Source: Petrotoga mexicana DSM 14811 (GTDB taxonomy: Bacteria; Thermotogota; Thermotogae; Petrotogales; Petrotogaceae). From it: a DNA stretch of 43,168 nucleotides. Each line of letters starts with the position of its first letter. The stretch's first letter is position 1. The stretch covers positions 1 through 43,168 of the forward strand of contig NZ_AZRN01000002.1 in the NCBI RefSeq assembly GCF_002895565.1. The letters run 5' to 3'. The translations under genes were made by a program, and so were the position numbers. Below the pieces are notes generated by a model. The model worked only from the letters and a program-made list of their open reading frames with translations, made no database searches and had not been told where the DNA came from. Shown here one piece after another: positions 20,054 to 29,922 of this stretch.

Positions 20054-21760
20054 TCATTTCTTTGCTTTTTTCATTTCGTACATCTTATTATCAGCTTCTT
20101 TTATTAATGATTCAAGGTTTATATCCTTTTGAAAGTCTCTATATTCTGAAACACCGTAACTTAAATCAATCCTCACGTTACCATCCACTTTAACCTCTTT
20201 GAGTTGACTTAAAATTCTTTGAAAAATTTTGTGAACATCAACTTCTTCAGCGTTTGGAAGCCCTAAAATGAATTCGTCTCCACCTATTCGTATTATCAAA
20301 TCAGATTCTCTTAAAGTACTTTTTAATACATCTGTTACCTTTTTTAGGATATAATCTCCCGCATCGTGACCATAATTGTCGTTTATGTATTTGAGATTGT
20401 CTATATCAATAAAAACGATAGATAGAGGCTCTTGCCTTCTTTTGGCAAGTTGAAAATATTTTTCTAAAGCATAAAAACCAGCTCTCCTGTTATAAGAACC
20501 AGTTAAATCGTCGAAAGTCGCGTATTTTTTAAGTATTTCTTCAAGTTTTTTCTTTTCGGTAATGTCTGTTATAACTAAAATAATTCTACTTACGTCAACT
20601 TCTTCATACGTTACACCCGTTAATAAAACTGGGACTTTGTTACCACTTTTCGTAACTAAGTTAGACTCGAAAGAAATTATATTATTAGAGCTTCTTTTTA
20701 AATTTTGCATATTTTCATAAAAAGTTTCCCAATCGCTTTGATCTAATACTTTTTTTAAATCTGATATTTCTTCTTCAAATTCAAGCATTTTGTAGAAAGT
20801 TTTATTGGCATATTTAACGTTAAAATCAAAATCTAATAAAACTAGACCTTGTCCCATGTTTTCGACAACTTTTTCAATAAAATCTTTCTCTTTTTTTATT
20901 TCGTCGATTTTCTTCTTGTTTTCAGTTATTTCTAAATAAGTACCAACCATATTCAAAGGTAGTCCAAACTTGTTTCGTTCTAAAACTTTACCCCTTGAAA
21001 GAAACCATTTGTCATTATTGTTCACATCTTTTATGCGGTACGCTCCTTCAAATTTGCTTGTTTTAGTCAAAAAATGTTCTCTCATATTTTTTATTACCAA
21101 TTCTGTGTCTTCTTCATTGATCGACTCTTCGAATTTGCTCCATTTGCCTTCAAATGGGTCTATGGTGTATCCTAAGATTTCTTTGTATCTTTCGTCATAA
21201 TTGAATTTACCGGAGTTCACATCCCATTCCCAAATTCCTATTTGAGAGACTTCTAAAGCTTTTCGAATAGTTCCTTGGTTTTTTTGAATGATTTCGATCT
21301 CCTTTTTGTACTTTTCACTTTCACTTAAATCTTTTCCAATTAATATGTAAAGGTTTTCATCGTTTAGCCGGAAATTTTCTAATTTGAATTCAAAAGTTGT
21401 TTCTTCTCCATTTCTGTTGGGAAAGTATGATTTAAAAATCAACAACTTGCTCTGATTGTGCCTTCTAAAGAAATATTCGATCTGTTTCTTAACGTCAACT
21501 TCAAAAAAAGTTATGATATCTTTACCGATAAAATCTTTTTTCGAAAAACCGAAATTATTGATCTTTTTGTTTACAAAAACAATTTTTCTATCACAATCCA
21601 TAATAAGTATAAGATCATTCAAGTCATCTAAAATGTAAGAAGGGAAGTTTGCTTCGATAAATTCAAAGGGTTCGTTTTTCGATTCCTCATATTTTTTTTG
21701 AAGTTGAGATAATATAAAGTTTTTCTCTACCCCTGTAAGTTTTTCGTAGTTATCGGATAT
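20054..21760 (-). CDS. PAS-PAS-PAS-GGDEF diguanylate cyclase, apparent ATA start
   Basis: Counted from the ATA at 21760, a 568-residue cyclic-di-GMP synthase with no membrane segment. Three PAS-like sensor domains lie at about 50-150 (DLILIMDCDRKIVFVNKKI), 160-280 (QIGIWEWDVNSGKFNYDERY) and 290-400 (GLVLLDFDFNVKYANKTFY), followed by GGDEF at about 408-568. The active site is intact (IRIGGDEFIL), and RESD five residues upstream matches the product-inhibition I-site. The frame stays open upstream of the first usual start (a TTG at 21622 with no SD) to a TGA at 21769-21767. In that stretch AGGGGTG (21774-21768) sits exactly 7 nt before ATA, 22 bp after the regulator gene stop. The start is an inference; the domain assignment is firm. 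Confidence 0.88.
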   Translation of the reverse strand: MSDNYEKLTGVEKNFILSQLQKKYEESKNEPFEFIEANFPSYILDDLNDLILIMDCDRKIVFVNKKINNFGFSKKDFIGKDIITFFEVDVKKQIEYFFRRHNQSKLLIFKSYFPNRNGEETTFEFKLENFRLNDENLYILIGKDLSESEKYKKEIEIIQKNQGTIRKALEVSQIGIWEWDVNSGKFNYDERYKEILGYTIDPFEGKWSKFEESINEEDTELVIKNMREHFLTKTSKFEGAYRIKDVNNNDKWFLSRGKVLERNKFGLPLNMVGTYLEITENKKKIDEIKKEKDFIEKVVENMGQGLVLLDFDFNVKYANKTFYKMLEFEEEISDLKKVLDQSDWETFYENMQNLKRSSNNIISFESNLVTKSGNKVPVLLTGVTYEEVDVSRIILVITDITEKKKLEEILKKYATFDDLTGSYNRRAGFYALEKYFQLAKRRQEPLSIVFIDIDNLKYINDNYGHDAGDYILKKVTDVLKSTLRESDLIIRIGGDEFILGLPNAEEVDVHKIFQRILSQLKEVKVDGNVRIDLSYGVSEYRDFQKDINLESLIKEADNKMYEMKKAKK

Positions 21761-21782: not shown

Positions 21783-22553
21783 TTATTCTACTTTTATTAT
21801 AGAGTATTTGAGTCCTTTTTCATTTAAAAGATTGTTGATCTTTTTAACAACAATTTCTCTACTCTCAGAAAGGTTTTTAATTCCTCTAAATAAAATATAT
21901 ATATGGTGAGAATTATAAGTTATTAAATCTTCCCGTCTTATGTTTTTTTTCAATTCATTAATTAATGAATCGTTAAAAGAAGAATTCAATTTAATCTCCA
22001 CCAATAGGTGGTCTTTATCTCTTTTAACTTTCTCAAGTTCGAGAACTATGTCGAATAATTCGGAGGATAAAAGGTTACCATCTTTTTCGTAAAATGTTGG
22101 TGATTCTTCATCATTTACTTTGACTGGTGTGAAGGGAAACTCTTTGGCATGCCCAAAAATATCTTTGTATTCGTTGAATAAACCTTTAGCTTTTTCAACT
22201 TCATTATTTTCTGTGTAGAATTTAATCAATCTTAACCAACTATCTTCTCTTTGCGAATAATAAAACGCCTTTTGGAAATAATAATGCGCATCGATTTTGT
22301 TGTTCATTTTTTGATGAATATTACCCATTTCAATTAACATATCAACATATATCCGTTTTAAATATTCCCTTTTTTCTCTTACCCATTCCTCGTGAACATT
22401 TTCCTTTAATAACTCACCTTTGTATAGACTAACAGCCTTCGAGAACAAAAACAAACGTCTATTGATTTCTTTCTCTTTAAAACCTTCATCGCTTAAAACT
22501 AAAAATTCTTCAAAATCAATATATATATGTCTTTTGATTTTGAAAACGTACAA
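21783..22553 (-). CDS. C-terminal part of a SARP/BTAD-type regulator (frameshifted)
   Basis: About 256 codons in the frame that continues the 22499-22816 gene. It lacks a proper start: the first possible codon is TTG inside the upstream frame, without SD. Residues about 10-110 form the helical, TPR-like BTAD region that follows the DNA-binding domain in SARP-type activators (IDFEEFLVLSDEG, VSLYKGELLKENVHEEWVRE, DAHYYFQKAFYYSQREDSW). The last ~90 residues (LLVEIKLNSSF to LKYSIIKVE) look like a degenerate nucleotide-cyclase-like fold without a GGDEF motif; that is tentative. Together with the upstream fragment it would be a protein of roughly 345 residues. See the frameshift finding. Confidence 0.7.
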   Translation of the reverse strand: MYVFKIKRHIYIDFEEFLVLSDEGFKEKEINRRLFLFSKAVSLYKGELLKENVHEEWVREKREYLKRIYVDMLIEMGNIHQKMNNKIDAHYYFQKAFYYSQREDSWLRLIKFYTENNEVEKAKGLFNEYKDIFGHAKEFPFTPVKVNDEESPTFYEKDGNLLSSELFDIVLELEKVKRDKDHLLVEIKLNSSFNDSLINELKKNIRREDLITYNSHHIYILFRGIKNLSESREIVVKKINNLLNEKGLKYSIIKVE

Positions 22554-22816
22554 AAATCCTCTTGTAAGGTTAATTCGTTGCTACTCAGTCCTAAATTTTT
22601 TCTAATATAATATAGTGTAGTATTTAAATTTTGTCTCGCACTTTCATCATCGAAACCGGGCCAAAACAGATCGTACAAATCAAAAACTAAGACCTTCTGG
22701 CCTCTATTGAGAATAAGATATTTCAGAATTTCTCTGGCTTTTCTTGATTTTAAATTTTCTATTGGTTTATCATCAAGAAAGATTTTAAAATCCCCCAACA
22801 TATAAACTTTAAGCAT
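22499..22816 (-). CDS. N-terminal DNA-binding part of a SARP/BTAD-type regulator (frameshifted)
   Basis: 105 codons. Residues 1-90 are an OmpR/SARP-type winged helix: MLKVYMLGDFKIFLDDKPI, then LKSRKAREILKYLILNRGQ, VFDLYDLFWPGFDDESARQN and LNTTLYYIRKNLGL. The frame then runs into an unrelated 15-residue end while the neighbouring frame carries the expected IDFEEF continuation. AAAGGAG precedes the ATG. The start codon lies in a short inverted repeat, AGCATA-CTA-TATGCT. It is the first gene upstream of the diguanylate cyclase and is downstream of the secreted-protein operon, so it may regulate that block. Confidence 0.75.
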   Translation of the reverse strand: MLKVYMLGDFKIFLDDKPIENLKSRKAREILKYLILNRGQKVLVFDLYDLFWPGFDDESARQNLNTTLYYIRKNLGLSSNELTLQEDFCTFSKSKDIYILILKNF

Positions 22817-22911: not shown

Positions 22912-23991
22912 CTAAAATTCGTAGGAGTATGTTAAAGAAAAAGAAAATGTGTTAGAAACAAAATTGTAACCACCTAAGGTTTCAAATTTAAAGTTGTATA
23001 TTTGATTCAAAATGCCTCCTGTTAAGGAAAAGTCGTATTGATTTTCCAAATAATTTAATCCCAAACCAATAAAAAAGTTGTTGTCCATATTTACAGACAA
23101 CTTTTGAAGCTCTCGCCCAAGATAAAATCCGGGGTCTTCAAAATTCAACGCTTGAGCTAATTTCTCTCCCAAATAAAAACCTTGTTCTTCGTTGGTAAGT
23201 ATATCTTTTAAATCGACGATTTTAAATGTGGGGAAGTTTTTGGTTGCTGTGAATGCAAAATCTCCTTTGAAATCAAAGTTGTTATTAGAAAATTTGTAAG
23301 GTACAAATATTCCATCGAATTCAAAAGAGTCAATATATGTTCTATCATTCAAAAACAGATAAAAGGTATCGTTTCGATAGTTAACACCAACTTTCAATCC
23401 GTTAAAAATGAGTCCTACATAGTAACCCCCATTTTTGTAATCAAGTAAGTTACTCATGCCAAAGAAAATTAAATCATTCAATTCCACTTCTGTTTCGGCA
23501 ACGAACTCATCTTCATAATAAGAAAATTGATTATAATAAGTTTTAAAGGTAATTTTATTCTCTTTTGAAATTTCTTTTTGATCTGTGAATTCTAACTTTT
23601 CAACGTTGTTCACTACAAGATAGATATCCAACGTCTTTTCTTCTTCTCCTTCTAAATAATAAATCGAGGTGACATAGTTTTTCTCGTTTTTCAAAAGGTC
23701 AATAGTATTTTCAAAGTGCATATTCACACTGTCTATAATAATTTTTGTTCTAACCTTATCTCCCAAGTCATTGAGAGGAGTAATTTCGAAAGTAGCCTCA
23801 ACATTGCCTTTTGAATCAAAATTGAAAGTATAGCCTTGAATCACAGCTACACTACCGAGCAACGTTTCACTTTTGCTTTCATTCTTCAAGGTAGAGTATA
23901 TTGAGTAATTATACATTTGAGAACTTTGTGAAAATGCAAAAATTTGAAAGATCAAAACAAAAGGCATTAAAAGATAGATATACTTTTTCAT
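22912..23991 (-). CDS. Secreted, probably outer-membrane beta-barrel protein, unrecognised
   Basis: A 359-residue protein with a signal peptide (MKKYIYLLMPFVLIFQIFAF, cleaved near SQSS). The rest alternates short polar and hydrophobic/aromatic strands, e.g. FYLFLNDRTY and FKFETLGGYNF, and ends FSLTYSYEF. A C-terminal phenylalanine with alternating aromatics is the classic outer-membrane beta-barrel signal. Two similar segments, QGFYLGEKLAQAL and PGFYLGRELQKL, form a small internal repeat near 265-300. I do not recognise a family. The ATG overlaps the stop of the secretin gene as ATGA, so the two are made together and probably act together. Confidence 0.75.
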   Translation of the reverse strand: MKKYIYLLMPFVLIFQIFAFSQSSQMYNYSIYSTLKNESKSETLLGSVAVIQGYTFNFDSKGNVEATFEITPLNDLGDKVRTKIIIDSVNMHFENTIDLLKNEKNYVTSIYYLEGEEEKTLDIYLVVNNVEKLEFTDQKEISKENKITFKTYYNQFSYYEDEFVAETEVELNDLIFFGMSNLLDYKNGGYYVGLIFNGLKVGVNYRNDTFYLFLNDRTYIDSFEFDGIFVPYKFSNNNFDFKGDFAFTATKNFPTFKIVDLKDILTNEEQGFYLGEKLAQALNFEDPGFYLGRELQKLSVNMDNNFFIGLGLNYLENQYDFSLTGGILNQIYNFKFETLGGYNFVSNTFSFSLTYSYEF

Positions 23992-25154
23992 TTCTGATCA
24001 ACCCCTTCAATGGTTGGGGTAGCAGTTAAAAATATCATCATCCGTTTACTTTCGTCTTTACTTTGGTTGTCCCCAAATAAAAACCTAAGAAAAGGAAGAT
24101 CTTTCAGCAACGTTGTTCCCCCACTTTTTGAATAAAGTTGGCTCAAATCCAAATCCGCTATCAACAAAATCTCGTTGGGGTTTAAATGGATCTTAGTCTC
24201 CAACTCTGATTCTGAAAGTAAATAACCATCTTTTGTAACTTCCATCAAGTTTGATGTTTTTGTCCTAAACGAAATTTGAAGGATTTTATCCCTCATAGTT
24301 GGGGTCATTTCTATTTCTATTCCACTCTCAATATTTCTAAATTCGTTTCTGTATGTAGTAAAAACGATACTCTCCAAATTCTTCAAACTTAATAACGCTG
24401 GCTCTCCGGGTAAAACATTTACAACCTGTTTAGTAACTAAATTTGCGGTTTCGTTCTTTTCGTACATCTCTATTTCAGCCTCAAAAAGATCTTGTACAGA
24501 AAATCCTATTACCGGACTGGTAAAAGAAAAGCTGTTAATGATACCTTCTTGGTTTATATTGAACACATTGCCCTTTATTAAATCGGAGTATCTTTCATTT
24601 GTCTCAACGATATAAACGGTTAATTCAATATATGGTTCACTCTTGTCCAACTTTTCAACCAGATCTTTTATATAATCTATTGTATTTTGTGGAGCATACA
24701 CAACTATTTGATTGGTTTCTTTGTTTGTTTTTATGTATTGATGTAGATTTTCGGGAATCAAATTTAAAAATTTATCAACCGAAATATAATTCAAAGAAAT
24801 CACTTGGGTTTCAGTTAGGTTCAGAAAATTATGGCTTTGAGGATCTGCTAATCCCACAAAGTAAACATTTTCATCAATTTTTTTGTAAGAGTAGCCACCC
24901 GGGAGTAGAAGTATATTCAATGCCTCTTCTAAATCTACTTCTACAAAGTCTGCTGTGACCAAACCACTCACGTATTGATCGGTTAAAATTGTTACCCCCG
25001 TTTGAAGAGATATTTCGTTCAAAGCCTCTATCAAATCGGTGTTGTAAAAAGTCGCCGTCACTTTTGGGGCAGTACTTTCTTGGGAGAAGGCTAAAAAACA
25101 CATAAGTGATAAAACAGACAAAGTTAATGCTCTTTTTAATATACTTTTTATCAC
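23988..25154 (-). CDS. Short secretin-like protein (STN, N1 and secretin domains)
   Basis: A 388-residue outer-membrane secretin homologue. Signal peptide to about 25 (SLMCFLAFS), then an STN/N0-like domain (about 30-100: ATFYNTDLIEALNEISLQTG), an N1/NolW-like domain (about 113-168: VISLNYISVDKFLNLIPENL, NQIVVYAPQNTIDYIKDLVE) and the secretin core (about 172-385) ending in the signature TTLLKDLPFLRFLFG and MMIFLTATPTI. It is much shorter than PilQ or GspD because it has a single N1-type repeat. The GTG start overlaps the upstream gene stop as GTGA with AGGGGG before it. No other type II or IV secretion gene lies nearby, so its partners are either the adjacent secreted proteins or encoded elsewhere. 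Confidence 0.82.
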   Translation of the reverse strand: MIKSILKRALTLSVLSLMCFLAFSQESTAPKVTATFYNTDLIEALNEISLQTGVTILTDQYVSGLVTADFVEVDLEEALNILLLPGGYSYKKIDENVYFVGLADPQSHNFLNLTETQVISLNYISVDKFLNLIPENLHQYIKTNKETNQIVVYAPQNTIDYIKDLVEKLDKSEPYIELTVYIVETNERYSDLIKGNVFNINQEGIINSFSFTSPVIGFSVQDLFEAEIEMYEKNETANLVTKQVVNVLPGEPALLSLKNLESIVFTTYRNEFRNIESGIEIEMTPTMRDKILQISFRTKTSNLMEVTKDGYLLSESELETKIHLNPNEILLIADLDLSQLYSKSGGTTLLKDLPFLRFLFGDNQSKDESKRMMIFLTATPTIEGVDQK

Positions 25155-26635
25155 ATTAACGCCCCCTCGAAGACTTTTAATCTTTGCTCATTGTTATAAA
25201 TAGTGAGGATGTATCTATAACCTTCCTCTTCTAAAATTGGCACTTCGCCAATCAGCAACGTTTCTTGGTTTGAAACTAACCACTCTTGGCTCGATGAAAG
25301 AAGATCGTAAACGCCTATGCTTACGCCATCTTTATCTAAAATGCTCAAGCTTCCTTTAGGGATAATGTATCTTTCCCCCGTATTTTTGATCAAGGCACTG
25401 AAAATTCCGCTGCCTTCTATTTTTTCATAATTTGAGCTCACTAACTCTACATCATAATTTACTTCACCTATGATAGTCTCTACGTTGACCTTTTTCTGAG
25501 ATAAAAATTTTCCCGATTCATCGTAGGCATTTAAAACGATCTTTCCGTAGTATGCACCATTTTCTACTTCTTTTGGTACATTTATTGAAAGGATAACCCT
25601 CGAGGTTCGTTGAGTGTTAACTGTAAAAGATGATGGGGACCTCAAAGATATCCAAGATAGTAAGTATCTATCTTTAGGTAAACTCGCAAAATCTTCTCCA
25701 CCAACTTGTACCGTAACGTTTTGATTGGACATATTTTGTAGATTTATAACAAAGGTTTTTACAGCACCAGGGTAAAGTTCATAACTGAACTCTGTATTGT
25801 CAAGTATAAGTGCAAGTTCCGTTGGAGGAGTGAAATTAAACCCTTCTTCAGGAACATTTATATCGTACGTAAAGACTCTTTGCCTGTTGGAGTAGTTAAC
25901 AAAGAGGTTTATTTTATAATCTCCTGGAGCTAATAAATACATGGGTTTACCTGAAAAAACAACTTTGTTCCCTTTTAATACTCTTTGGGTGGTTATATTG
26001 TTTTTTTCCATGTAAGAAGATTTTAAGGGCAATCTTTCTATCATCCGGCCTGATTTATCTCTCAAGATAGCTTCAGCAGAAATTACGAGGTCATAACTTG
26101 AACCGTTAGCAATTGTAGCTTCGAATACTGGTTTACCTTCTTCATCCGGAACGATCTTCACATCTTCAACTTCTACCCTTGTTATGACGGTTCCTTGTAT
26201 GTGAGCTGTGATTCTTATCGCATACCTTATAATTATTCCTATCGTTCCACTAGTTTCAACTTCTGGGGTAATCATGAGGATAAAATTGTAAGTTCCAAAA
26301 GGAGCGTTTGAAGGGATATTAACGATAACATCAACAGGCGTTGTCGAACGTGGAGAAACGGTAATGGAGTTTGGAAACTCAATCCAATTTGAATATATAA
26401 AGTTATCTGGAGTTGCTTCTACATAATCAAAATTTCCAGTTAAGTCCTGACTCAGTTGGTAAAGTTCTATATTGACGTTTTGTGTGGTGTTGCCTCCAAT
26501 GACGTTTATAGTAGCAACGAATTCCTCCCCTGCCCTGACGTCCTTTTCAACGGACAGGGGTGAAACGGTTATCTGAGTAAAAGAAAAAGTTGTAAAAAGT
26601 AAAAAACTAATCGATAGAATAAAAAATTTCTTCAT
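25151..26635 (-). CDS. Secreted multi-Ig-like protein (DUF916/NEW3-like), putative periplasmic chaperone or scaffold
   Basis: A 494-residue secreted protein: signal peptide (FFILSISFLLFTTFSFTQ) followed by four or so beta-sandwich domains. The first (about 20-150: ITVSPLSVEKDVRAGEEF, then APFGTYNFILMITPE) resembles the DUF916 or pilus-chaperone-like N-terminal domain. The second (about 155-265) holds VANGSSYDLVISAEA-type strands, the third (about 270-395) is NEW3-like (ELYPGAVKTFVINLQNMSNQ, VPKEVENGAYYGKIVLNAYD), and the last runs to the end. No transmembrane anchor is visible at the C-terminus. It is first of three overlapping genes with the secretin and the barrel. Its role as chaperone or scaffold for the small secreted proteins upstream is inference from fold and position. 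Confidence 0.75.
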   Translation of the reverse strand: MKKFFILSISFLLFTTFSFTQITVSPLSVEKDVRAGEEFVATINVIGGNTTQNVNIELYQLSQDLTGNFDYVEATPDNFIYSNWIEFPNSITVSPRSTTPVDVIVNIPSNAPFGTYNFILMITPEVETSGTIGIIIRYAIRITAHIQGTVITRVEVEDVKIVPDEEGKPVFEATIANGSSYDLVISAEAILRDKSGRMIERLPLKSSYMEKNNITTQRVLKGNKVVFSGKPMYLLAPGDYKINLFVNYSNRQRVFTYDINVPEEGFNFTPPTELALILDNTEFSYELYPGAVKTFVINLQNMSNQNVTVQVGGEDFASLPKDRYLLSWISLRSPSSFTVNTQRTSRVILSINVPKEVENGAYYGKIVLNAYDESGKFLSQKKVNVETIIGEVNYDVELVSSNYEKIEGSGIFSALIKNTGERYIIPKGSLSILDKDGVSIGVYDLLSSSQEWLVSNQETLLIGEVPILEEEGYRYILTIYNNEQRLKVFEGALM

Positions 26636-26664
26636 GATTATTACCCATCCCCTTTTTTGTGTCT

Positions 26665-26673
26665 ATTATATCA
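26665..26673 (-). promoter_or_regulatory. Extended -10 promoter for the Ig-like/secretin/barrel operon
   Basis: On the minus strand TGATATAAT, i.e. TGn plus a perfect TATAAT, 30 bp before the ATG at 26635. No good -35 is seen. It would give the assembly genes a second, weaker source of transcript beyond read-through of the upstream terminator. Confidence 0.55.
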
Positions 26674-26732
26674 CAATTTATAATTATGAAATCTTTAATT
26701 TTAATATTTTATTCCTTAAAAGACTTTGCACC

Positions 26733-26786
26733 TAAATAATAATAAAATTACCCCTTTTACGTGCTTTATAGCAAAAAGGGGTAATT
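26733..26786 (-). terminator. Strong hairpin terminator after the putative major subunit gene
   Basis: 13-bp stem AATTACCCCTTTT / AAAAGGGGTAATT (26746-26758 with 26774-26786), extended by an inner TGCT/AGCA stem with loop TTAT. On the minus strand it is followed by TTTTATTATTATTT. It lies 45 bp after the stop of the 26831-27283 gene and before the assembly genes. Confidence 0.85.
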
Positions 26787-26830
26787 GATAGATATGAAAT
26801 ATTATTAATAAATGTTCTTGAAAAAAACTT

Positions 26831-27283
26831 TTAGATTGAAGCTATGGTGAAGGTTACATCGGCGATTTTTGTGCTTGGTGTGAGTGAACCTAGATTTAAG
26901 TTGCCTAGAACGTCAAGTGTTGCAGTAACGTCGAAAACCACATTTCCTGCCCCTCCAAAACCAGCTGCCGCTGTGTCTATAGTAATTTGTAATAAATTAG
27001 ACCAAATGGAATAGCCTGCCATCGCGGTTACTGAACTAGTAACATTATAACTCACGTTTGCCTCAGCTAAGAGCTTTACAGTGTCTGAGGGATTTGCGGG
27101 ATTTGCTGGATCAAATACTAAATCGAACTGGCTATCAATACTTGAAGAATCTACTGACAATCTCACAAATGCTGGAACATTCAAAAAGACAGGAACGTTA
27201 ACAGTATCAGAAACTTGTGCCAACCCTGAAACTGACATCAACATCACCATCATCAAAACTACTAAACCTAAAACTTTTTTCAT
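26831..27283 (-). CDS. Small secreted Ig-like subunit 1 (putative major subunit), unrecognised family
   Basis: A 150-residue secreted protein: signal peptide (KKVLGLVVLMMVMLMSVSGL, cleaved after AQ) and one beta-rich domain that is unusually rich in Ala, Val, Ser and Asn and has no Cys. It begins VNVPVFLNVPAFVRLSVDS and ends TKIADVTFTIASI. Both ends are shared with the proteins at 27416 and 29428 and with the last domain of the 28029 protein. The SD is AGGGGTG, 7 nt before ATG. It has its own promoter and is followed by a strong terminator, the pattern expected for an abundant structural subunit. Its DNA is less AT-rich than its neighbours. Function unknown. Confidence 0.75.
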   Translation of the reverse strand: MKKVLGLVVLMMVMLMSVSGLAQVSDTVNVPVFLNVPAFVRLSVDSSSIDSQFDLVFDPANPANPSDTVKLLAEANVSYNVTSSVTAMAGYSIWSNLLQITIDTAAAGFGGAGNVVFDVTATLDVLGNLNLGSLTPSTKIADVTFTIASI

Positions 27284-27347
27284 AATTTTACACCCCTTTT
27301 AAAATTTTTTGTTTTTTGAATTATTTTCATTTTGCTTTTCTAATTTA

Positions 27348-27391
27348 ATTATACTTGTCATACTAAAACCATACTAATTTTTAATAAAAAT
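27348..27391 (-). promoter_or_regulatory. Promoter region of subunit 1 with 11-bp-spaced direct repeats
   Basis: On the minus strand: -10 TATAAT (27353-27348), no TTGACA, but two copies of TTAGTATG (27377-27370 and 27366-27359), start to start 11 bp, the distal one covering the -35 position. Upstream lies ATTTTTATTAAAAATTA (27391-27375), which recurs at the same distance (38 bp) from the -10 of the next gene. Such helical-period repeats at -35 are how SARP-type activators bind. Confidence 0.6.
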
Positions 27392-27415
27392 TCAATCAGA
27401 ATTTATGTTACAAAT

Positions 27416-27868
27416 TTAGATACTCGAAACTGTTATTTGAATATTTCCGATTTGGCCATTTATAAAGGTATAGATAATACCTTGCAAAAGGCCTACATCC
27501 AACTGAAAAGTCAAAGTGTAGCTTTGTATTCCAGGAGTTCCTCCAGAGCCTGACAAAAACAAACTATAAGAATCTTCTATTAAACCTTGTTGAAAACTAG
27601 AAAATGATTCAAGGACCGTAAAAACAGCTGTTAAATTATAATTTATATTGGATTCTACTATAAAAGTTAAACTGTCTTCGACTATGTCGCCCCAGTTGGC
27701 AATCGTGGCATACAAGTCTAAACGTGAATCGCTAAGGTTGGTAATTTTCAAGTATTCAGGTACCGTTATATAAATAGGAACGGTAAATTCTTCATTTGTA
27801 GCAAATGAGACTGATGAAATAATAATTACAAAAGTGAAAATAAATGTGTATTTTAATTTTTGAACCAT
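27416..27868 (-). CDS. Small secreted Ig-like subunit 2, paralogue of subunit 1
   Basis: A 150-residue secreted protein with a signal peptide (YTFIFTFVIIISSVSFA). The mature start EEFTVPIYITVPEYLKI and the C-terminal GQIGNIQITVSSI match subunit 1 in pattern and spacing, with ESNINYNLTAVF against its AEANVSYNVTSSV in the middle. Overall identity is modest, so these are diverged paralogues. The SD TGAGGA precedes the ATG closely. It shares its promoter architecture with subunit 1. Family and function unknown. Confidence 0.72.
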   Translation of the reverse strand: MVQKLKYTFIFTFVIIISSVSFATNEEFTVPIYITVPEYLKITNLSDSRLDLYATIANWGDIVEDSLTFIVESNINYNLTAVFTVLESFSSFQQGLIEDSYSLFLSGSGGTPGIQSYTLTFQLDVGLLQGIIYTFINGQIGNIQITVSSI

Positions 27869-27915
27869 TAGTCCTCACGCCCTGACTTAATTTTCTATAA
27901 ACTAATTCTAATTTA

Positions 27916-27959
27916 ATTATACTCCGGGTAATAAGATGACAATTAATTTTAATAAAAAT
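27916..27959 (-). promoter_or_regulatory. Promoter region of subunit 2, paralogous to that of subunit 1
   Basis: On the minus strand TATAATTAAATTAGAA, identical over 16 bases to the sequence at the subunit 1 promoter, with ATTTTTATTAAAATTA exactly 38 bp before the -10 as there. No -35 consensus. The 11-bp direct repeats of the subunit 1 promoter are not obvious here. Confidence 0.55.
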
Positions 27960-28028
27960 ACAATAAGAATTTTGAAGAAAAACAGTAAAATGAAAATAAA
28001 AAAATTAGAGGAAAGATTTAGGAAGGTA

Positions 28029-29231
28029 TCAAGAAGCCGAAAGAGTGATATACACATCTCCTATATGGATAATTTCATCGACGGTGATAACTTTATTTTC
28101 AAAAAGGGATAGTATTAGTTCACGTTTATCATTCCACAAATCGGCAAAGTTTGCCTTTATTTCAATATCAAAATCGGTATTGCCGTTCTCTACGGATATT
28201 ACTTCATCATTTTGTAAAAAAATGTAATCTGCCAAAAAGTTATAAGTCTCAAAAATAACCATTGAAAGATAAATCTCGTACTTTGGCAAGGTTGATTTAA
28301 TCTGCACTGGAAGTGAAGAAATAACATTATTCTGTGGGTTTGCAAGGTCAAAAGTTAGTTGAATTCTGCCTTCTCCTCCGATGATGAAGGTTATATCAGG
28401 TTCAGGAACCTTAAAGTAAATAGGAATTGCTAAATAACTAAAACACCCACCTTCCATCGGGATAGATATGACAGCGTTCGCTACGTGAAGTCCTTCTTTG
28501 GGAGACCCAGCCTCAACATATTTTTCTTGTAACAAACTTCCATAATTGTTGAATAGGTTACCTAAATTAGAGCCAACTTTTACATCGAACTCTACATTTG
28601 GATTATTTAAATAGATATTAGGAGAACTTAAAAATTGTAAATAACTATCTTCAGATAGAAAATCAAACCCATCTAACAACTCAACACTAACGTAAACATG
28701 AAGGGGGGGTAAGTTAGACTTGAGAGATAGGTTAGAAATTTTTTGATCGTACCATGGCCCACTACCTGGATAAGGTGGAGAAAATACAAAGACTATGTCG
28801 TTTGAAACTGTATAGTTCACAAAGAAGTCATCAACTACGAAATAAACGTCAACAAAATCTAACTGTTTCCCATTTGAGTCAAAAAGCAAAAATTCTCCTA
28901 TTTTTGTGCCTGAAGAAGATAAAAGACCATTCTTAAACATAGCTAGAATTTTTTGGTTATTACTTTGCCAAAATGTTTGGACATTAAACCCTAGTTGTAT
29001 TATATAAGTATTTCCGTTTTTCCAACTTGAAGGGTTGAAATAACTTTTAAAAAATTCGTAATTACGTTCTAGTTGTAATTCTACACGAGAAACGTTCGAT
29101 TGCTTAACATCAATTAGAATTTGCTGGTAGTTGTAATGGTCCTTATCTAATTTGAATTCGAAATAATTGTTTGTTGAAAATATGCTTATAGTTATGAACA
29201 AAAAAGTTAAAAAGACAATTATTTTCCTCAT
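28029..29231 (-). CDS. Secreted protein of three tandem subunit-like domains
   Basis: A 400-residue secreted protein (signal peptide RKIIVFLTFLFITISIF). I count three related beta domains, roughly 25-130, 130-260 and 265-400. Each seems to carry a strand pair with an aromatic/FL segment (LLDGFDFLSEDSYLQFL and IFETYNFLADYIFLQ in the last two), then a FDVKVGSNLGNLFNN or FDIEIKANFADLWND stretch, and each ends in a strand like IGDVYITLSAS, the same C-terminal pattern as the small subunits. The third opens with AIPIYFKVPEPDITF, the PVY-x-VP motif. ATG at 29231 is preferred over the GTG at 29240 because AGGAAG then lies 8 nt upstream. It may be a tip, anchor or minor subunit. Confidence 0.7.
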   Translation of the reverse strand: MRKIIVFLTFLFITISIFSTNNYFEFKLDKDHYNYQQILIDVKQSNVSRVELQLERNYEFFKSYFNPSSWKNGNTYIIQLGFNVQTFWQSNNQKILAMFKNGLLSSSGTKIGEFLLFDSNGKQLDFVDVYFVVDDFFVNYTVSNDIVFVFSPPYPGSGPWYDQKISNLSLKSNLPPLHVYVSVELLDGFDFLSEDSYLQFLSSPNIYLNNPNVEFDVKVGSNLGNLFNNYGSLLQEKYVEAGSPKEGLHVANAVISIPMEGGCFSYLAIPIYFKVPEPDITFIIGGEGRIQLTFDLANPQNNVISSLPVQIKSTLPKYEIYLSMVIFETYNFLADYIFLQNDEVISVENGNTDFDIEIKANFADLWNDKRELILSLFENKVITVDEIIHIGDVYITLSAS

Positions 29232-29262
29232 TTTAATCACTTCCTAATAATTTTCTTTCTAA

Positions 29263-29268
29263 ATTATA
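29263..29268 (-). promoter_or_regulatory. -10 element of the three-domain protein gene
   Basis: TATAAT on the minus strand in GAGGTATAATTTAGAAAG, 31 bp before the ATG at 29231. Like the other two minus-strand subunit promoters it lacks a -35 consensus and has AT-rich ATTTTTATTGAAAG about 40 bp upstream. Confidence 0.5.
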
Positions 29269-29365
29269 CCTCATTTTTTATAAATAATTTTAATTCTTTC
29301 AATAAAAATTTAATAAAAATGATTATAATTCGCCTTTAATAATGATTACAAAAAAACAAGAAAGC

Positions 29366-29394
29366 TTGACATTTTCATTTTTATTTAGTATAAT
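29366..29394 (+). promoter_or_regulatory. Consensus sigma-70 promoter of subunit 3
   Basis: TTGACA (29366-29371), a 17-bp spacer and TATAAT (29389-29394): a perfect match in both boxes. It drives the divergent gene at 29428. The contrast with the -35-less promoters of its paralogues suggests constitutive against regulated expression. Confidence 0.88.
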
Positions 29395-29427
29395 TTTATT
29401 AGACTTTTATTAGAGGTGGTGAGTGTA

Positions 29428-29922
29428 ATGAAAAAGACAATTTTCGTAACGTTAATAATTTTGTTTGTTATGAATATAAGCGTTATTTCTTTTTCTCAAA
29501 CTTCTGATAGTGTTAATATCCCGGTTTATATCAGTGTTCCCAGCTATGCTGCAATTGACTCTGTTGATAAAGAGAGATTAGATTATGAATTAGATTTGTC
29601 ATCTCCTGAAAACAAAAATGAAGAGGTTAAAATAAAAATCGTAGCAAATACAGCTTTTGAGATTAATGTGGAATTTGATGCCGAAGAAAGCAACTTTAAC
29701 GAACAGAACCAAGCATTGTTTGAATTGTTGAATAGCAGTTATAATTACTCTCTAAATAGTAACGATTCATCGTCTGGAGTTATTGAAAAAACCGTTCAAG
29801 TGGGCTTTAATTTTCAACAGGTGCTTGATAGCAATCCTGAAATGAGAGAGTTACTTTTGGAAAGTGGAGAATACAACGATAAGGTTGGAAATTTTGTTTT
29901 CACAGTTTCTCCTGCAGTTTAA
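29428..29922 (+). CDS. Small secreted Ig-like subunit 3, divergently transcribed paralogue
   Basis: A 164-residue secreted protein: signal peptide (TIFVTLIILFVMNISVISF, cleaved near SQ), mature start SDSVNIPVYISVPSYAAID (compare subunit 1, VNVPVFLNVPAF) and C-terminus DKVGNFVFTVSPAV. The middle is more acidic (Asn/Glu/Ser-rich) than in the paralogues. ATG at 29428 with GAGGTGGTGAG before it is preferred to the GTG at 29416, which lies inside that SD. Its last codons fall in a 13-bp sequence repeated at 30064-30076 on the other side of a repeat cluster. Confidence 0.75.
   Translation: MKKTIFVTLIILFVMNISVISFSQTSDSVNIPVYISVPSYAAIDSVDKERLDYELDLSSPENKNEEVKIKIVANTAFEINVEFDAEESNFNEQNQALFELLNSSYNYSLNSNDSSSGVIEKTVQVGFNFQQVLDSNPEMRELLLESGEYNDKVGNFVFTVSPAV

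Follow-up and report, generated by a model that had tools for sequence, protein, structure and literature searches.

In type II and type IV systems, the N0-like STN domain of the secretin binds inner-membrane partners. In Gram-positive WxL clusters, AlphaFold work has predicted that the DUF916 hairpin strand of the WxL-interacting protein (WxLIP) completes the WxL sandwich (PMC10599100). A survey of secretion systems found Thermotogae to be the sole diderm clade lacking all of the systems searched, and suggested that systems of their own may have evolved in them (PMC4793230). The locus described here, from Petrotoga mexicana DSM 14811 (phylum Thermotogota), is a candidate answer to these missing secretion systems. 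On balance, it is probably a chaperone-secretin pathway for surface proteins, through which strand-complemented subunits would be exported and perhaps assembled into a fibre. Its combination of a short secretin (SEC), a chaperone candidate (IGC) and subunits (SUB1-SUB4) was not described in the open-access papers that were searched.

Organisation of the locus

The stretch of DNA analysed (the window) is 43,168 nucleotides long and is one whole contig (NZ_AZRN01000002.1). Seven open reading frames (ORFs) were confirmed at 22912-29922, and every product begins with a hydrophobic, signal-like segment and has nothing resembling a membrane helix further on. These seven secreted proteins constitute one module. 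Transcription on the (-) strand follows the order SUB3, SUB2, SUB1, IGC, SEC and OMP, and SUB4 lies alone on the (+) strand. An earlier account made from the DNA alone (the sequence-only reading) had described three overlapping genes, and these are OMP, SEC and IGC, with an overlap of 4 bases at each junction. Pfam searches of ten flanking window proteins identified housekeeping genes, a PAS-GGDEF protein and a split regulator, in agreement with the earlier observation that no pilus ATPase, prepilin peptidase or usher is encoded nearby. The PAS-GGDEF protein, a diguanylate cyclase, is encoded close to the module at 20054-21622, and a related gene cluster lies near some of the other loci.

The short secretin

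SEC (P0002, 388 aa; 23988..25154, (-) strand) comprises an STN domain, one N1 repeat and a secretin core, and matches to Secretin (PF00263, 3e-10), STN (4.9e-7) and Secretin_N (1.1e-6) all exceeded the Pfam cut-offs. The sequence-only reading had described a secretin with a single N1-type repeat; the one N1 repeat stands, and the protein also contains the N0-like STN domain that the description had left out. Against the curated NCBIfam cut-offs, SEC scored far too low for PilQ (55 bits versus 284), GspD (40 versus 351) and SctC alike. A separate PilQ-like secretin is encoded elsewhere in the P. mexicana genome as a 698-residue open frame. A phylogenetic tree of secretin cores, aligned against the short-secretin profile, places the IGC-linked secretins together with L146 and L151, which have no IGC within the fetched stretch, apart from Thermotogota PilQ and other secretins (SH-aLRT 88), with SH-aLRT as the sole support measure and several long branches. 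L149, labelled 'other' in this tree, turned out to have an IGC neighbour. With moderate support, the IGC-linked short secretins appear to form a separate secretin lineage. The cut-offs, the tree and the separate PilQ-like secretin speak against a firm grouping with a known type II or type IV system, which the earlier reading had recognised as a possible outcome.

The same results bear on a rather improbable alternative, in which the short secretin is another exit for a type IV pilus or a type II-like pseudopilus and the subunits are its cargo. SEC retains the N0-like STN domain, as would be expected of such an exit, but the genome already has its separate PilQ-like secretin and the short secretins lie outside the Thermotogota PilQ group.

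The chaperone candidate

IGC (P0003, 494 aa; 25151..26635, (-) strand) is a secreted protein whose first half resembles a whole WxLIP, and is the proposed subunit chaperone. The IGC family profile aligned with both domains of the solved structure of EfmWxLIP1 (9i1y/9i25) with an E-value of 2.9e-9, and the alignment spans the first half of the profile. WxLIP_PGBD was detected in 14/25 family members and WxLIP_HBD in 2/25 (E<=0.01), and P0003 itself has a sub-threshold WxLIP_PGBD match at residues 283-311. On profile similarity, IGC is a homologue of the WxL-interacting protein of Gram-positive bacteria (DUF916 plus DUF3324), and the match to EfmWxLIP1 sharpens the earlier idea of an Ig-like chaperone to that of a WxLIP-like protein. 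The second half of IGC appears to repeat the unit of the first half, given its length, the W...P...VP...G-Y pattern that is visibly repeated in the family alignment, and the sub-threshold match at residues 283-311. P0003 has no hydrophobic segment near its C-terminus, that is, the C-terminal membrane helix of WxLIP is absent. Donation of a strand by IGC is proposed because the WxLIP hairpin is predicted to complete WxL (PMC10599100).

A less probable alternative, though one to be weighed seriously, is surface display without polymerisation, in which single subunits would pass through the secretin and, bound by IGC or by the barrel, coat the cell or sheath in the manner of WxL clusters. The composition of the module parallels those clusters, with small and large subunits and a WxLIP-type protein (PMC10599100), and in WxL clusters WxLIP is a surface component, not a shuttling chaperone. 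However, IGC lacks the membrane helix of WxLIP, and a simple coat needs less than a multimeric secretin.

A second IGC-like gene is present in the P. mexicana genome (L053, G000:C14:60872-63750) and is followed by a gene for a 448-aa STN/N1 plus beta protein. Neither a short secretin nor recognised subunits lie alongside, and the arrangement is repeated in several related genomes.

The third gene

OMP (P0001, 359 aa; 22912..23991, (-) strand) is the third-gene product. It is beta-rich and ends in YSYEF, consistent with the earlier description of a beta-rich protein with a terminal Phe. Comparison by hhalign matched P0001 to the third genes of Thermotogota and Bacillota (probability 92.6, E 4.5e-7) and matched that third-gene family to the secretin core (probability 95.6, E 1.3e-8); the direct match between the family of P0001 and secretins was not significant. 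A model of the relative L093_08, not of P0001, exhibits an overall pLDDT of 74.8 with a poor N-terminal part, and its twelve C-terminal antiparallel strands match KdgM with a TM-score of 0.77 (KdgM-normalised). From these comparisons and the model, the third-gene family combines the remnant of a secretin core with a predicted outer-membrane barrel of 12 strands. The OMP of the window is a divergent member, for which the secretin-core and 12-strand-barrel assignment would hold at the level of the family. A longer version of the third gene that retains STN and N1 is present at other loci (L110_01), and third genes were identified solely in loci of Thermotogota, Bacillota and Atribacteria. Identification of the third protein as a plain porin was rejected, given the additional kinship of its family with the secretin core.

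The barrel predicted for the third-gene family also brings in a very improbable alternative, in which the secretin, barrel, Ig proteins and subunits form an envelope tether or porin-like assembly that links the outer membrane, wall and sheath. The phylum is toga-bearing and has a known OmpA/OmpB tether and porin (PMC3387000), but a secretin is not expected in such an assembly.

The subunits

SUB1 (P0004, 150 aa; 26831..27283, (-) strand), SUB2 (P0005, 150 aa; 27416..27868, (-) strand) and SUB4 (P0007, 168 aa; 29416..29922, (+) strand) are small secreted subunits that form one family in iterated profiles. SUB4 is divergently transcribed, and its orientation relative to the other subunits is kept in L033, L035, L036, L062 and L072. 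SUB3 (P0006, 403 aa; 28029..29240, (-) strand) is a large subunit in which residues 271-402 match the SUB HMM (i-E 8e-7), preceded by unrelated N-terminal beta domains, a layout that would be analogous to that of a tip adhesin. The iterated profiles and the HMM match of SUB3 show the small proteins to be related to each other, as had been supposed. The strand motifs that the sequence-only reading assigned to all four proteins hold in full at the N-terminus, where P[VI][FY][ILF]xVP is present in each of SUB1-SUB4, and in three of four at the C-terminus, where SUB3 ends in HIGD instead of [KQ][IV][AG][DN]. The N-terminal motif occurs 17 times among 1593 ORFs of related loci, only in the subunit family, versus 0.25 occurrences with shuffled residues. 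A whole-genome search placed all four Petrotoga-type subunit homologues of P. mexicana at the module locus and none elsewhere.

In Thermotoga and relatives, the Petrotoga-type subunits are replaced by a second subunit family (VRKPG) with the core W-x-[WY]-x-V-[RK]-K-P-G. Its small members are about 215-250 aa in length, and its large members are about 310-440 aa and possess a C-terminal domain. All members in the collected loci lie 1-6 genes from IGC, and every match in six whole genomes is at the module locus and nowhere else. The profiles of the two types match over just 48 columns (probability 84), and they were therefore counted as two families. Extra small secreted proteins upstream of IGC (L047_16-17, L057_07-10 and L058_12-16) form a cluster of their own, at loci whose third gene has STN/N1, and may represent a third subunit family. 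A 403-aa ORF on the (+) strand at L036:12593-13804, between two subunit genes, is unmatched by the module families and is possibly an insertion.

An AlphaFold2 model of SUB1 (mean pLDDT 89.8) contains strands at residues 40-44, 66-75, 79-87, 98-102, 113-123 and 141-149, and residues about 21-39 are extended and unpaired. SUB1 is thus confidently predicted to fold as an Ig-like sandwich of six strands, preceded by a loose strand at the N-terminus. Such a free strand, as modelled, suits donation to a neighbour and argues against surface display without polymerisation. The top Foldseek match in the PDB was the PapD-bound PapGII pilin domain (E 0.013, TM about 0.4), and further weak matches were to PapK, CFA/I and the Pyrobaculum bundling pilus (7ueg), none of which reached E 0.001. 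Because these fold matches are weak, the likeness of SUB1 to pilins is suggestive only. Subunit profiles found nothing above chance among PDB sequences, and profile comparisons detected no sequence similarity of the subunits to WxL or pilins. Identification of the subunits as WxL domains was rejected for want of sequence support, as the WxL domain (PF13731) is unmatched in them; this domain was also not found in the P. mexicana genome.

Distribution of the module

Among 103 Thermotogota genomes, the short secretin is present in 59, IGC in 63 and both in 57 (Fisher p 2e-19, which overstates independence because the genomes are related), and about 40 of the 103 lack the short secretin. SEC and IGC are separated by <=400 bases in 62/70 Thermotogota cases. 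The locus is also present in T. maritima-type genomes from culturable organisms. A profile scan of 84,980 species genomes with a narrow secretin alignment returned 36 loci, most of which lie outside Thermotogota: in Bacillota MAGs including Halothermothrix, WOR-3, Omnitrophota, Hydrothermota, Atribacteria, Latescibacterota, Abditibacterium/Armatimonadetes, Planctomycetota and Eisenbacteria. In 29/36 of these loci, the distance between IGC and SEC is 1-6 genes; the remaining seven comprise five in which SEC sits at a contig end or close to one, plus L108 and L118. The co-occurrence of the neighbours in other genomes, on which the sequence-only reading depended, is therefore upheld across Thermotogota and beyond. 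The presence of the module far outside toga-bearing bacteria, and its absence from many Thermotogota, count against an envelope tether.

Omp85 is present in 23/23 non-Thermotogota module genomes tested, and these genomes therefore look diderm. T2SSF-type proteins are present in 22/23 of them, which favours the short secretin as an alternative exit for a pilus or pseudopilus. At L107 (G115) the module is present and a T2SSF-type protein was not detected, which counts against that alternative but is possibly due to MAG incompleteness. L105 (G113), a MAG labelled Aneurinibacillus, is probably a mislabelled diderm, since it carries Omp85, several T2SSF genes and the secretin module.

Neighbour clustering of 45 representative loci, picked for holding the SEC-IGC pair, identified the secretin/third gene and IGC in 45/45, a SARP/BTAD regulator in 18/45, and small secreted protein families, with no additional widely shared family. 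No assembly ATPase, inner-membrane platform or prepilin peptidase is widely shared among the 45 loci; an inner-membrane or ATPase gene is never a conserved neighbour, which also argues against the alternative exit. Given its position near SEC in 18/45 loci, the SARP/BTAD-type protein is likely to regulate the module. In the window, this regulator (21783..22816, (-) strand; Trans_reg_C-like and BTAD matches) is split near 22519, where a TA repeat differs by 2 bases, and alignment identified an intact 351-aa version in a close relative (L033_07). The split could reflect a sequencing error, a pseudogene or repeat-length switching.

Proposed pathway

The co-occurrence of SEC and IGC, the distinct secretin and the related small proteins support the earlier view that the subunits are exported or assembled at the surface. 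We infer that strands are donated, that the secretin is the route of export and that a fibre forms, by steps that would run as follows. Sec would export the subunits into the periplasm, where the IGC hairpin strand would complete their open Ig sandwich, in the way predicted by AlphaFold for the WxLIP-WxL pair. The IGC-subunit complex would dock onto the N0/N1 ring of SEC, a neighbouring subunit would displace the IGC strand with its own N-terminal strand, and the product would exit via the secretin pore. The role of tip or adhesin, at the leading end, would fall to the large subunit, which carries the subunit domain at its C-terminus; the secretin/barrel protein would serve the channel as an anchor, gate or cap. 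Since the locus has no linked ATPase, the energy for assembly would come from folding, as it does in chaperone-usher pili. Given the T2SSF-type proteins in 22/23 module genomes, the module may instead borrow a type II/IV inner-membrane engine.

A narrower form of the chaperone-secretin reading is advanced tentatively, as somewhat doubtful: a diderm pathway in which a WxLIP-derived chaperone and a short secretin acting as usher would build an ATP-independent fibre, with a secretin-core/beta-barrel fusion serving the channel. This form covers Thermotogota, diderm Bacillota, WOR-3, Omnitrophota, Planctomycetota and others. If subunits do polymerise through the secretin, the module would be a new route to surface fibres. 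It connects WxLIP, a surface module of Gram-positive bacteria, with an outer-membrane channel in an arrangement that diderm Bacillota share, and this link bears on how surface machines change between one- and two-membrane cells.

Comparison with known systems

In the 103 Thermotogota genomes, the usher (PF00577) never exceeded the cut-off and the PapD-type chaperone (PF00345) was not found at all, and the E. coli controls were positive for both; membership of the chaperone-usher family was therefore rejected. Membership of a standard T2SS or T4P was rejected on the SEC scores, the separate PilQ-like secretin, the tree and the neighbour clustering. The locus is thus not a standard type II, type IV or chaperone-usher locus, as the sequence-only reading had concluded.

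The module shares with TasA/CalY and archaeal bundling pili secreted beta subunits and a donor-strand style of assembly, proposed here, and 7ueg is among the weak SUB1 fold matches; this similarity is not significant, and those systems have no outer-membrane channel. With GspD of type II secretion and PilQ of the type IV pilus it shares the STN, N1 and secretin-core domains, whereas SEC is short and far under the family cut-offs, and no ATPase, prepilin or peptidase is linked to it. WxL clusters resemble the module in the likeness of IGC to WxLIP over both domains, in the layout of small and large subunits and in strand insertion, which is predicted for WxLIP. Unlike those clusters, the module resides in diderm hosts and includes a secretin, its subunits have no WxL domain match, and IGC is about twice the length of WxLIP and lacks the C-terminal helix. 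From chaperone-usher systems the module differs in that its channel is a secretin, its chaperone is WxLIP-like and its subunits have no sequence similarity to pilins. It resembles them in its Sec-exported subunits, predicted to be Ig-like with an N-terminal strand, its Ig-type chaperone candidate, the absence of an ATPase from the locus, an outer-membrane channel, and a two-part large subunit with a C-terminal subunit domain.
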